From: Lactobacillus sp. MRS-253-APC-2B | Lineage (GTDB): Bacteria > Bacillota > Bacilli > Lactobacillales > Lactobacillaceae | DNA: 64,000 nt | NCBI RefSeq assembly: GCF_012843675.1 | Contig: NZ_JABAFO010000001.1 | Location: 186,001-250,000, forward strand | Direction: 5' to 3' | Position numbers and translations under genes: made by a program | In this document: piece after piece, positions 11,240 to 41,014 of the stretch | Layout of the letters: each line of letters starts with the position of its first letter | Numbering within the stretch: position 1 is the stretch's first letter | Notes under the pieces: model-generated | The model's database searches: none | What the model was told of the DNA's origin: nothing | The model's input: only the letters and a program-made list of their open reading frames with translations

Positions 11240-12109
11240 TTATTTTGCCTTATCGACGTCACGATGATGCAAATTGACCGTATAGCCATCCTGACGCAGA
11301 TCATGATTTAACCGGTTGGCAATCGTTACTGAACGATGCTGACCGCCAGTACAGCCAATGGCAATCGTCAGGCTGCTTTTGCCTTCTTGAATATAGCCAG
11401 GTAAGGTTACCTTTAACAGGGCCTTGAGGTGTGAATAAAAATCTTGGGCCAACTGACTCTTCATCACATAGTCTTGGACTGGCTGATCGTTGCCGGTTAA
11501 ATGCTTGAGCTCAGGCAGATAGAATGGGTTGGGCAAAAAACGAGCATCAATAACGATATCAGCATCTAATGGCAATCCATATTTAAAGCCAAATGACATA
11601 ACCTCAACAAAAAAGCTGCTGGTCTGACCATTGCCAAAGTAGTCATCAATCCGCAGCCGCAGATTGCGCGGCGTCAGGTTAGTGGTGTCAATAACAACGT
11701 CGGCTTGACTCTTCAGATCACTCAAAAGCGTCCGTTCCTTTTGAATTCCTTCTAAAACGCCACCTTGCCGTGACAGTGGGTGCGAGCGCCGCGTTTCCTT
11801 ATAGCGTGATACCAGCTCAACATCACTGGCATCCAAAAACAAAACTTCAACTTTTAGATCAGTCCGATTCTTCAAGCGCTGAATGCAAGGCAGAATCTGG
11901 TCATAGAACGCTTGTGATCGCGAGTCCATTACCATCGCCATCTGGTCGAATTCAGCAGCGTTTTGGATCACGTCGGCAAATTTTTCCGCCAGATTAGGCA
12001 GCATGTTATCAATTACAAAATAGCCTAGATCCTCAAAGCTTTGAACGGCAACCGTCTTACCGGCGCCACTCATCCCAGTAATGATCACGACTTGTAGTGG
12101 TTTTGCCAC
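11240..12109 (-). CDS. rapZ: RapZ / YvcJ nucleotide-binding protein
   Basis: A 289-residue P-loop protein with Walker A GMSGAGKT (12-19) and the C-terminal GCTGGQHRSV segment (about 252-261) typical of RapZ. In E. coli RapZ senses GlcN6P and guides RNase E to GlmZ. In Bacillus the homologue YvcJ hydrolyses nucleotides and affects competence. The same RNA role cannot be assumed here. The start is GTG at 12109, preceded by GAGGTG at good spacing. First gene of rapZ-yvcK-whiA; a promoter lies 34 nt upstream. Confidence 0.93.
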   Translation of the reverse strand: MAKPLQVVIITGMSGAGKTVAVQSFEDLGYFVIDNMLPNLAEKFADVIQNAAEFDQMAMVMDSRSQAFYDQILPCIQRLKNRTDLKVEVLFLDASDVELVSRYKETRRSHPLSRQGGVLEGIQKERTLLSDLKSQADVVIDTTNLTPRNLRLRIDDYFGNGQTSSFFVEVMSFGFKYGLPLDADIVIDARFLPNPFYLPELKHLTGNDQPVQDYVMKSQLAQDFYSHLKALLKVTLPGYIQEGKSSLTIAIGCTGGQHRSVTIANRLNHDLRQDGYTVNLHHRDVDKAK

Positions 12110-12191: not shown

Positions 12192-12391
12192 AAAAGCATG
12201 AGAGTGAGAAAAAACTCCGAAAATCAGCTTGCGACCGATTTTCGGAGTTTGTCTTCGAACCTCCTCAATTATGGCTAGGTCGGTCAAATGCTGATTTATC
12301 AGCGTTTGAACTGCCAGCCAGCTACTGCGCTGAGGCATTACTATCCATAAAATAGTTAAGAGGTTGAGTTAATTCCCAGCCTCATGCTTTT
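12192..12391. repeat. Dispersed ~180-200 bp structured repeat, copy 1
   Basis: Positions 12201-12380 match 39435-39613 with about nine differences in 180 bp. Ends are imperfect inverted repeats: AAAAGCATGAG at 12192-12202 pairs with CTCATGCTTTT at 12381-12391, and the next 15 bp also mostly pair. Inside are a 12-bp hairpin (12214-12248) and a 10-bp hairpin (12285-12308). It contains no convincing gene. It fills the space between rapZ and aroD. It could be a MITE-like element or a structured RNA. Confidence 0.85.
12214..12248 (-). terminator. Terminator-like hairpin inside repeat copy 1
   Basis: Minus strand ACTCCGAAAATC pairs with GATTTTCGGAGT and is followed by TTTTTTCTC. It lies about 150 nt beyond the aroD stop and probably ends that operon. 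Confidence 0.7.
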
Positions 12392-12404: not shown

Positions 12405-13157
12405 TTAAATTTTTAAATTATCCAGTGCCCTTCTTAATTCGGCAATGCTTAGCTGACCGGGGGCTGAGGCCTTTTCAACGGCACCAAACGTCAATGCTGA
12501 GCCAAAGACCTCACCGGCTATGCGCGTTACCTTCCCTAGATCGCCCATGGCCATGGTGATCAATGGCAAATCCAGTTGTGCATGTGCTTGAGCAGTCGCT
12601 TGCAAAAGTGTCAAAACATCATTTGAGTTTTGCGGCATAACGGCAATCTTAGCCACATCGGCACCAAGATCAGCCATCACGTGCAAGCGATAATAGATCT
12701 CTTCAGCAGCTGGCGTTCGGGCAAAATCGTGGCTGCTCATAATTACCTTAATACCATGAGTGTTTGCCAGTGCTACGATTCGCTCAATCTGAGATCTTTG
12801 ATGAAACAGCTCAAGATCAATGGCATCCGTCAGCTCATTTTCAATTACAAAATGTACGATCTGAAAATACTTTGCTTCATCAAGCTTTCGACTGCCACCT
12901 TCTTCAATCGTGCGAAACGTGGTTAAAAGCGGCAGCTCAGCCAGTATTTTTCTCAATTTAAGGGCTGCTGAGCGTAGTTTTTCAAAATCCAGGACATCAT
13001 CAAAAAAATCAATTCGCCATTCAACAACGTCTGGCTGCGCATTTACGATGGCTTGTGCCTGCTTTTCAATGGACATTTGATCATCAGCAACGATTGGAAC
13101 GGCAATTTTAGGTCTGCCATTGCCCAAGACGATATTTCTAAGCTTAACCTCTTTCAT
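12405..13157 (-). CDS. aroD: 3-dehydroquinate dehydratase, type I
   Basis: A 250-residue class I dehydratase that interconverts 3-dehydroquinate and 3-dehydroshikimate through a Schiff base. The catalytic His143 (SSHDF) and Lys170 (AKIAVMP) are present, and EWRIDFF (46-52) holds the substrate-binding Glu/Arg. The start codon touches the stop of aroE (TAGATG), so the pair is translationally coupled. No other shikimate-pathway gene is nearby, so the pair could serve use of environmental quinate/shikimate rather than aromatic amino acid synthesis. Confidence 0.93.
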   Translation of the reverse strand: MKEVKLRNIVLGNGRPKIAVPIVADDQMSIEKQAQAIVNAQPDVVEWRIDFFDDVLDFEKLRSAALKLRKILAELPLLTTFRTIEEGGSRKLDEAKYFQIVHFVIENELTDAIDLELFHQRSQIERIVALANTHGIKVIMSSHDFARTPAAEEIYYRLHVMADLGADVAKIAVMPQNSNDVLTLLQATAQAHAQLDLPLITMAMGDLGKVTRIAGEVFGSALTFGAVEKASAPGQLSIAELRRALDNLKI

Positions 13158-38785: not shown

Positions 38786-39427
38786 ATGACTGCGCCATTT
38801 TTAACTATTGCTCAAGATGTCACCCATGAAATCATCATTAAAAAATCACGCTTTATCTGCAGCCTGTTTCGCGTTGAGTCTGAAGAGCAGGCGCAAGCGG
38901 CAATTACCCAGATTAATAAGCTTCACCGCAAGGCAACCCACAACTGCTTTGCCTACCTGATCGGCGAACACGACCAGATTCAGCGTGAAAGCGACAACGG
39001 CGAGCCCAGTGGAACCGCCGGCGTACCAATGCTGGAAGCTTTAAAGGCCAATCAGCTGCATAACGTTTTAGCCGTCGTCACCCGCTATTTTGGCGGCATC
39101 AAGCTGGGAGCTGGCGGCTTGATTCGTGCCTACAGCAATTCGGTATCGCAGGCTATCGAACAGGCCGGACTGGTCGAACGTGTCGAGCAGGCCGTTTTAA
39201 AAGTCAATGTTTCCTATTCACAGCATGACTCACTACTTTATTTTTTAAAGCAAAACAACCTTGAGATTGCCGCTGAAGATTACGGTGCCAGTGTCATCGT
39301 CAGCATATATGTTGATGAAGATCAGCTAAGTGAACGGCTAAAGCAACTGACTGATCGTTTCAACAACCAGCTGACAATTGAAAAAGGCCCGACGCGCATT
39401 CACGAGATTCCATATTCCAAGGCATAA
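38786..39427 (+). CDS. YigZ / IMPACT-family protein
   Basis: A 213-residue protein with the UPF0029 domain (about 1-125: HEIIIKKSRFICSL, HNCFAYLIG, SDNGEPSGTAG, VVTRYFGGIKLGAGGL) and a C-terminal DUF1949-type ferredoxin-like half. Homologues associate with translation (IMPACT regulates Gcn2 in eukaryotes); the bacterial role is unclear. Divergent from comFA-comFC, a conserved Firmicute arrangement. ATG at 38786 with an AAAGAGG SD. Confidence 0.9.
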   Translation: MTAPFLTIAQDVTHEIIIKKSRFICSLFRVESEEQAQAAITQINKLHRKATHNCFAYLIGEHDQIQRESDNGEPSGTAGVPMLEALKANQLHNVLAVVTRYFGGIKLGAGGLIRAYSNSVSQAIEQAGLVERVEQAVLKVNVSYSQHDSLLYFLKQNNLEIAAEDYGASVIVSIYVDEDQLSERLKQLTDRFNNQLTIEKGPTRIHEIPYSKA

Positions 39428-39434
39428 TTAAAAG

Positions 39435-39613
39435 AGAGTGAGAAAAAACTCCGAGAATCAGTTTGCGACCGATTTTCGGAGTTTGTCTTCGAACCTCCGC
39501 AAGGATGGCTAGGTCGGTCAAATGCTGATTTATCAGCATTTGAACTGCCAGCCAGCTACTGCGCTGAGGCATTATTATCCATACATAGTTAAGAGGTTGA
39601 GTTAATTCCCAGC
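39435..39613. repeat. Dispersed structured repeat, copy 2
   Basis: About 95% identical to 12201-12380 in the same orientation. It lies between the yigZ stop (plus) and the MFS gene stop (minus). Hairpins correspond: ACTCCGAGAATC/GATTTTCGGAGT (39448-39482) and CAAATGCTGA/TCAGCATTTG. One extra stem, CCTCC-GCAA-GG(A)TGG, is present here and broken in copy 1. No coding frame with an SD. Confidence 0.85.
39448..39482 (-). terminator. Terminator-like hairpin in repeat copy 2
   Basis: 12-bp stem with one A-C mismatch on the minus strand, followed by TTTTTTCTC; probably ends MFS transcripts about 145 nt beyond the stop. Confidence 0.6.
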
Positions 39614-39625
39614 TTCTTTGTTTAT

Positions 39626-41014
39626 TTATTTTTCCTTTGGCACGCTCTTAAAGTAGCTCAGCCAAACGATCAGACTAAAAATCAACAGCATGATAAAGGC
39701 ATGCTGCGTACCGATTGCCGTAGCTTTAGCCGTTCCAACATGCAGATGGTATTGACTCTGTGCCACTACGGTAGCCGAAAGCGAGGTCCCCATCGCACCA
39801 GCAAACTGCTGCAGCGTGTTCATAATCGCATTCCCTTGAGTTCGCTCCTTAACTTGCAAAGTATTTAAGGCACTGGTCATAACACAGCCCATACACGCAC
39901 CCATGCCGCCCATATACAAAATATAGATCAGCATAATAAACATATTGCTTAGCTGTCGGCTGAAGGCTGCAAACAGCACCAATGAGATCACACAGCTGGT
40001 AAAGCCGGCTAAAATCGGCTTGCGCGGACCATATTGGTCCAGCAGCTTGCCACCAAACGGACCAAAAAATGCTCCCATAAAGCCAGCCGGTAAGACCAAT
40101 AGCCCAGCCAGCAGCGCTGAGTTGCCATTGACCAGCTGAATATAATTTGGCAACAAAAAGGCAAAGCCCAATGAGATGATCTGCGTCAAAAAGAAGCCCA
40201 GTACGTGTCCAGCAAAAGCTTGGTTATTAAACAGTCTTAGATTCAAGATTGGCACCGCAATCTTTAGTGAGCGCACAATCAAAACAATCATGCCAATCAG
40301 TCCAAACAAAAGTGCGCCACCAACTTGCCAGCTTAAGAATTGACCACTGCTGAGGTTGCTGAAGCCAAAAATCAAGCCGGAAAACATCATGGCAATACCA
40401 GCAAAGCTGATGCCATCGATTTTTTGCCGCTCAATAGCCGATTTTTGCTCAATACCCCAGATTCCCAAGAGCAAAGAGATTACCAATAGTGGTAATAAAA
40501 AGTAAAAGACCCAACGCCAGCCAAAACTGCTGACGACGATTCCGCCAAAGGTTGGACCGATTGCTGGCGCGATCCCGGTAATCATATTGGCCAGTCCCAT
40601 CATAAAACCAATTTTACTTTGCGGTACCTGTTCCAAAATAATATTGAACATCAATGGTAAGGCAATCCCCGTTCCAATTCCTTGAATTGCTCGCCCCATC
40701 AGCAAAAAGGCAAAGCTGCCCGCCAAAGCATCAATCAAAGCCCCAGTAATAAACAGCAGATTGGCACATAAAAATAATTTTTTGGTTGCAAACGACTTCT
40801 TTAAGATGGCTGACAGTGGCACGATAATTGCCACGATCAATAGATAGATCGATGTCATCCACTGAACCATGTTTGTTGTAATATCAAATTCCTTCATCAA
40901 TGTGGGGAAGGTTATGTTCATTGCCGTTTCCACAATCACACCGCTAAACGACATCAGTCCCGTTGCTAGAATCGCTGCGTAGACCCGCTTATCGATTCGA
41001 TCCGTTTGATTCAC
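39626..41014 (-). CDS. MFS drug-efflux transporter, DHA2 (EmrB/QacA) type
   Basis: A 462-residue membrane protein with 13-14 hydrophobic spans. It carries the MFS motif GRAIQGIGTGIALPLMF (about 108-124), the antiporter motif C region (LANMITGIAPAIGPTFGGIV, about 141-160) and a charged start. It is expected to be a proton-driven multidrug exporter. The start is GTG at 41014, which overlaps the stop of the marR-like gene by one base (TAGTG), so it is translationally coupled to its probable regulator. Substrate unknown. Confidence 0.88.
   Translation of the reverse strand: MNQTDRIDKRVYAAILATGLMSFSGVIVETAMNITFPTLMKEFDITTNMVQWMTSIYLLIVAIIVPLSAILKKSFATKKLFLCANLLFITGALIDALAGSFAFLLMGRAIQGIGTGIALPLMFNIILEQVPQSKIGFMMGLANMITGIAPAIGPTFGGIVVSSFGWRWVFYFLLPLLVISLLLGIWGIEQKSAIERQKIDGISFAGIAMMFSGLIFGFSNLSSGQFLSWQVGGALLFGLIGMIVLIVRSLKIAVPILNLRLFNNQAFAGHVLGFFLTQIISLGFAFLLPNYIQLVNGNSALLAGLLVLPAGFMGAFFGPFGGKLLDQYGPRKPILAGFTSCVISLVLFAAFSRQLSNMFIMLIYILYMGGMGACMGCVMTSALNTLQVKERTQGNAIMNTLQQFAGAMGTSLSATVVAQSQYHLHVGTAKATAIGTQHAFIMLLIFSLIVWLSYFKSVPKEK

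Follow-up and report, generated by a model that had tools for sequence, protein, structure and literature searches.

A repeat that occurs twice in a 64,000-nt stretch of the genome of Lactobacillus sp. MRS-253-APC-2B (the window, G000:C1:186001-250000, where G000 is the strain's own 1.98-Mb assembly) probably belongs to a non-coding, modular family of mobile repeats in Limosilactobacillus, whose members are putative transcription terminators, two-way in many copies, and which spreads by taking the place of terminator stem-loops. Transcripts arriving from the left would run through a first hairpin (A) and a core and stop at a terminal hairpin (R) with its U-tract, and transcripts from the right would run through R and the core and stop at A with its U-tract. 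To spread, the element would substitute for the G+C stem-loop of an intrinsic terminator already in the genome; because a terminator stem-loop already in place is replaced, landing would cost the host little.

Two copies of a modular repeat

The earlier note on this DNA had described two gene-free intergenic stretches, 95% identical and on the same strand. Both are there, with coordinates that were correct to 1-3 bases (Table 1), and neither contains a gene-sized open reading frame (ORF). The two differences in stems that it had listed between the copies are also present: in hairpin A an A is replaced by G, and in hairpin M of the core one copy has U-G where the other has U-A. Copy 1 is 184 bases long and copy 2 is 183 bases long; folded with short flanks, copy 1 reached z-scores of -7.25 (plus strand) and -7.98 (minus strand) against dinucleotide shuffles, and 0 of 200 shuffles equalled it. 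Its gap lies between aroD and rapZ, both minus-strand genes, with ATGCTTTT outside hairpin R and AAAAGCAT on the opposite side of the element. At the same gene border in genome G006, upstream of rapZ, locus L085 carries a long G+C-rich, repeat-like hairpin of an apparently different family.

Table 1. Features of the two element copies and their neighbouring genes, in window coordinates.
Feature	Position	Strand	Basis or context
Copy 1	12200..12383	+	BLAST of own genome; orientation set with hairpin A left and hairpin R right
Copy 1, core match to model R1	12260-12383		G000:C1:198260-198383
Copy 1, hairpin A	12200..12263		Sequence and folds; minus-strand reading ends GGAGTTTTTT
Copy 1, core: helix P2 and hairpin M (about 12272-12320)	12264..12329	+	Alignment A2, columns 5-70
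Copy 1, hairpin R	12360..12383	+	Right-end pattern match C1:198360-198383
Copy 2	39434..39616	+	Convergent yigZ / MFS gap; 6 and 9 bases to the two stop codons
Copy 2, core (P2 and M)	39498..39563	+	Model match C1:225494-225616 = window 39494-39616
Copy 2, hairpin R	39593..39616	+	Right-end pattern; then TTTGTTTATTTATTTTT
rapZ	11240..12109	-	Downstream of copy 1
Promoter-like site TTAAAA-17-TACAAT	12171-12143	-	Between copy 1 and rapZ
aroD	12405..13157	-	Upstream of copy 1; stop codon 21 bases from the element
yigZ/IMPACT gene	38786..39427	+	Left of copy 2
MFS efflux transporter gene	39626..41014	-	Right of copy 2, convergent

From left to right the element consists of hairpin A (GAGAGTGRGA...), which is self-complementary and varies in sequence; a rod in which helix P2 (CGCR/YGCG, degenerate in copy 1) joins hairpin M (GGCTAGG...CCAGCC) and unpaired bases are conserved; a linker; and hairpin R, GAGGYTGRGTTAATTCYCAGYCTC. 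Some copies carry an extra core hairpin, in others the core is missing, and A or R can also stand by itself. At L340 (G050:C1:569600-570700) we read a perfect lone A-type hairpin with AAAA/TTTT flanks, terminator-like on both strands, and at L347 (G050:C1:1499500-1500800) a lone R hairpin after the end of an ORF that resembles an IS30-type transposase gene. At L342 (G050:C1:1323000-1324000) and L039/L317 (G002:C35), a stretch starting TATGGCAGATTG, perhaps the end of an insertion sequence (IS), splits the element at the linker TTTAAA; this point, cut alike in two species, is a possible insertion hotspot.

Copy number and distribution

That the repeat is present twice, as the earlier note had it, holds for the window but not for the genome: a whole-genome BLAST search, which might have returned these two copies only, gave 51 rows; merging these by position left 34 places, of which 17 are near full length (at least 174 bases, 85-100% identity, copy 1 counted). 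A right-end pattern allowing up to 3 mismatches matched 28 sites in this genome and 55 in G050, with 0 matches for the reversed-pattern control. A covariance model of the core (R1), built from 23 copies, had matches at E<=0.01 in 36 of the 50 genomes searched in the genus, counting the own genome; in G044 this is a single match, at E 0.004. Match counts are 67 in G050, 65 in G020 and 49 in the own genome, figures that are too high, since the same hairpins also draw antisense partial matches. Among relatives, G014 and G049 are nearest by protein identity; they have 0 and 2 matches, respectively (the second in G049 being antisense to the first), yet G020 and G050, which are more distant from the own genome, are element-rich. 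This patchy presence, together with a mean identity of 93% (range 88.5-97.3%) among 16 own-genome copies, indicates recent multiplication in bursts within lineages.

In a sample of 396 genomes of the family, in which 8 candidates per genome were scored and G016 (2 matches in a finer search) was missed, 21 genomes matched, 14 of them Limosilactobacillus; the 7 others fall in 6 genera and are weak, with best E values of 7.6e-6 to 7.7e-4 per genome. Limosilactobacillus species also recurred among the matches listed in a pattern scan of named genomes, and among these the element was read at loci of L. oris, L. mucosae, L. coleohominis, L. rudii, L. avistercoris and L. viscerum. An own-genome copy (L006) and one of L. 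mucosae DSM 13345 (L118) have a flank in common, so the host is probably L. mucosae or a near relative. Pattern matches in S. sanguinis, also among the matches listed, were rejected as family members, the sequence around them being unrelated. A search of a phage collection and one pattern scan of viral contigs found no element. Two Limosilactobacillus plasmid records hold a similar stretch (69.5% identity across 99% of the query in one, 83.3% across 74% in the other). A copy on an L. reuteri plasmid (L410, NZ_CP139476.1:92518-96655) lies near a Pycsar effector/cyclase gene pair and is a possible route between strains; the other plasmid record carries dlt and murF-like genes and may represent chromosomal sequence inside a plasmid record.

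Placement at gene ends and terminator-like features

Gene context was read with a simple ORF caller for 133 copies, drawn from two hit sets (84 + 49 hits) after exclusion of antisense partial hits and the weakest hits. At least one gene 3' end faces the element in 128 of them: 48 copies lie in convergent, 76 in tandem and 5 in divergent gaps, and 4 have one side unknown. Tandem copies split 50 to 26 by order (binomial p 0.008). In 101 copies a stop codon faces the right end; the gap between the two has a median of 16 bases and is 30 bases or less in 80. Element-free gaps of at least 80 bases served as controls and numbered 6 convergent, 40 tandem and 32 divergent at the same loci; 3, 15 and 4 in the window; and 2, 15 and 3 in 60 kb of G014. 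Against the same-loci control, convergent gaps are in excess (Fisher p 1e-6) and divergent gaps in deficit (p 2e-11), figures to be read with the divergent gaps being rarer in the window and G014 controls and with the copies not all being independent, because some represent one orthologous insertion (the sets L230/L231/L311, L006/L224, L310/L038, L256/L325 and L257/L324). A preference for gene 3' ends is also expected of neutral insertions after selection.

Many copies have features of intrinsic terminators at their ends. Flank tests used the 83 or 94 copies whose ends could be placed by motif, and a tract was defined as at least 3 A before the left end or at least 3 T after the right end, within 5 bases. 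By this definition 72 of 83 copies have a tract beside at least one end (62 + 56 - 46), and thus a hairpin with a T-tract on at least one strand, a hallmark of intrinsic termination; 46 of 83 have tracts on both sides. A T-tract score of at least 2 was reached after hairpin R on the plus strand in 64% of 133 copies (below 2 in 36%) and after hairpin A on the minus strand in 71% of 104 (below 2 in 29%). After hairpin M the corresponding figure on the plus strand was 0% of 122; on the minus strand this position was scorable in 2 copies only, 1 of which was above the threshold. A strict terminator scan around both window copies returned 0 terminator-like sites. We infer that the element probably terminates transcription in the cell.

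Proposed exchange with resident terminators

At all 8 orthologous sites that we read, relatives without the element have a different, simple hairpin terminator in its place. The sites of copy 1 and copy 2 have such hairpins in both G014 and G049, as do those of L014, L010 and L009; L012 and L015 were compared with G014. The old hairpins have folding energies of -13.9 to -31.4 kcal/mol on the better strand; that at L014 is weak on the plus strand (-4.9 kcal/mol) and good on the minus strand (-20.2 kcal/mol). Judged by eye, A- and T-tracts stand on both sides of the occupied and the empty site in 5 of 8 cases (copy 2, L012, L015, L009 and L309), and on one side only in 3 (copy 1, L014 and L010). 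No 10-mer of the old stem-loop is left in the occupied gap at 6 of the 8 sites; the 2 found at L010 and the 8 at L309 are ascribed to the retained A/T tracts. An alignment of the own genome with G014 ran without a break through 9 of 10 element-free 3' gaps, which were taken without requiring a recognized terminator, and through 0 of the 5 element gaps listed.

The clearest case is L309 in G053, for which five relatives have flanks that are 90-98% identical. The gap between the aligned flanks is 21 bases in G056, G015, G021 and G016, 36 bases in G054 and at least 160 bases in G053. Both element-free genomes read here, G056 and G054, have a hairpin at the site (AATAGAAAATGA...TCATTTTCTATT in G056), and G053 retains an outer AATAGAAAAT/ATTTTCTATT stem around its element. 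In G055 (L358 / L351, C3 about 1907190-1909100) the orthologous site is split by about 1.9 kb, the start of which we take to resemble a group II intron end, with an element copy alongside. The remaining sites compared in the reuteri-like group, which are outside the 8, are occupied in both genomes or rearranged.

The earlier note had suggested that the element could be a MITE or a multi-copy RNA. The part of this suggestion that stands is a dispersed, structured and apparently mobile repeat; what does not fit is the lack of a target-site duplication, by which MITEs are defined, in 83 copies, in which direct identity of the flanks never rose more than 1 sd above shuffled pairings at lengths of 2-10 bases. 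The 8 orthologous empty sites likewise revealed exchange and no target duplication. Instead of being directly repeated, the flanks are inverted-complementary (0.667 versus 0.523 in shuffled pairings at 3 bases, about 6 sd, 83 copies); over 94 copies the mean complementarity was 6.38 versus 5.83 shuffled (sd 0.16), and past the first 5 bases it was 5.62 versus 5.49 (sd 0.14), not above shuffles. We considered and rejected a landing within the terminator loop that would leave the old upper stem in place, this stem being gone by comparison with the empty sites.

An ordinary MITE, mobilized by a transposase in trans, could have inserted at A/T-rich gene ends and later outlived the neighbouring terminator. 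Such an origin would suit the imperfect inversion of the ends (7-8 of the 10 terminal bases match by eye, and each end also forms a hairpin of its own), the burst in one species, the truncated copies and the A/T-rich flanks; set against it are the flank statistics and the loss of the old stem-loop 10-mers described above, and we regard it as unlikely. By eye comparison of left and right ends in G000 and G050, we saw no autonomous transposon or IS with matching ends. One pair of left and right ends, 3.1 kb apart in G050, was rejected as a transposon: it encloses a long, ordinary-looking ORF, presumably for the alcohol dehydrogenase AdhE, and no transposase.

Replacement of terminator stem-loops is the preferred reading. 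Had the element first inserted and the old terminator then been lost, the end state would be the same as after a direct exchange; we favour a one-step exchange, perhaps with the A/T tracts serving for template switching or short-homology recombination. Further than this, we propose only tentatively that a selfish non-coding element homes into terminators by a one-step hairpin swap between an A-tract and a T-tract, through a folded plus-strand ssDNA or RNA intermediate and with neither target duplication nor a transposase of its own, which would be a new mode of mobility. Replacement of stem-loops would be one concrete way for bacterial terminators to turn over, in which a mobile repeat brings a ready-made terminator and ousts the old ones, at a scale of dozens of sites per genome. 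For a genomic parasite it would amount to a safe-harbour strategy. The exchange step is open to a direct test in the reuteri-like group, whose species have flanks that are 90-98% identical.

Covariation and the favoured strand

Covariation, whose absence the earlier note held to speak against a functional RNA, is strong. In an alignment of 104 distinct sequences (A3; 100 loci out of the 133), which was fitted to the model and so favours structure, and in which related copies have changes in common, 95.9% of cells are paired in the consensus structure and 23 of 33 pairs have double changes, versus a shuffled mean of 13.2 (0 of 500 shuffles reach 23). Pairing registers slid by 1-3 columns gave 28-39% paired cells. 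Among 34 long-form A hairpins, 4 of 14 positions have at least two Watson-Crick types, each in at least 2 copies, and the partner follows.

Wobble pairs were then counted by strand, A-C on the plus strand corresponding to G-U on the minus strand. Over the 104 copies, the ratio of G-U to A-C on the plus strand is 162:16 in hairpin M, 114:34 in helix P2 (the P2/M column pairs 10-97 and 38-75 were possibly drawn in by being G-U on plus), 59:42 in hairpin R and 88:152 in hairpin A, the last counted on a symmetric fold that we drew for the left 76 bases, in which spurious outer pairs may be included. When the majority states of 31 sequence clusters are compared, the M helix (columns 42-52) favours the plus strand by 32:5 and R is even at 15:15. 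The hint in the earlier note that the plus strand is the favoured form thus extends to hairpin M and the core and not to the whole element, since hairpin A leans to the minus strand. The wobble counts indicate selection on the core in the form of a folded plus strand, either RNA or ssDNA, and we infer that this single-stranded form matters for upkeep or spread of the element.

The same data could reflect a multi-copy small RNA gene or a riboswitch-like RNA expressed from the plus strand, for which the covariation, the conserved unpaired bases and the G-U bias in M would all be expected. We consider this very unlikely, however, as promoter scans found 2 hits at one window copy and 1 at the other (0.9 and 0.7 in the respective shuffles), none inside the element; copies are placed by gene ends, with 5 of 133 between divergent genes; 14 of 50 genomes of the genus are without a match; and hairpin A leans to the opposite strand. 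On the element, none of the Rfam 15 families scored at its gathering level, and the weaker matches fell far short of it, for example mir-335 (23.2 of 64 bits, E 0.0054) and ylbH (25.6 of 50 bits, E 0.2), which leaves a large covariation-supported family with no Rfam 15 model at that score.

Comparison with known repeat families

REP/BIME sequences with their RAYT transposases are, like the element, extragenic palindromes near gene 3' ends. Movement of the family by a Y1 (RAYT) transposase is nevertheless scarcely credible and was set aside: the extragenic position of the hairpins, a minus-strand GTAG adjoining the M stem that we take to resemble a REP feature, 4 Y1 matches (fragments) in the own genome and 19 Y1 beside 7 element matches in G053 would speak for it, but over the 16 genomes searched the distribution of Y1 has no association with the element, Y1_Tnp (PF01797) having 0 matches in the element-rich G020, G046 and G003 and 27, 15 and 5 in the element-free G018, G008 and G009. 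Group IIC introns, which home to intrinsic terminators, insert next to the hairpin and bring along a ribozyme and a reverse transcriptase; they share with the element the terminator as landing site, whereas the element would swap the stem-loop and encodes nothing.

A literature search that covered few subscription journals found no such family in Lactobacillus or Limosilactobacillus and no terminator replacement, and a survey of stem-loop families, in the part available to us, includes L. johnsonii among its genomes (PMC2267715). Of the published repeats considered, the pneumococcal SPRITE, BOX and RUP come closest in kind. BOX and RUP of Streptococcus pneumoniae, whose ends reportedly resemble IS ends, are in the accessible portion of their description highly folded, spread in bursts and over-represented in convergent gaps, and BOX is modular, all of which recalls the element (PMC3049150); unlike them, the element is without target duplication and, in the two genomes compared, without an IS with matching ends. 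The pneumococcal Rho-independent terminator-like element SPRITE, with an 18-bp duplex and a U-rich tract and 30 copies in one S. pneumoniae genome, is, as far as the same partial account describes it, likewise dispersed, terminator-like, enriched in convergent gaps and without an IS with matching ends (PMC3049150). Compared by description only, the Limosilactobacillus element differs from SPRITE in having three modules with a conserved core, in belonging to another genus, in reaching 55 right ends in one genome (G050) and in having replaced resident terminators at the sites read. Terminator exchange and the absent target duplication set the family apart from SPRITE, BOX and RUP as that source portrays them in the sections consulted.
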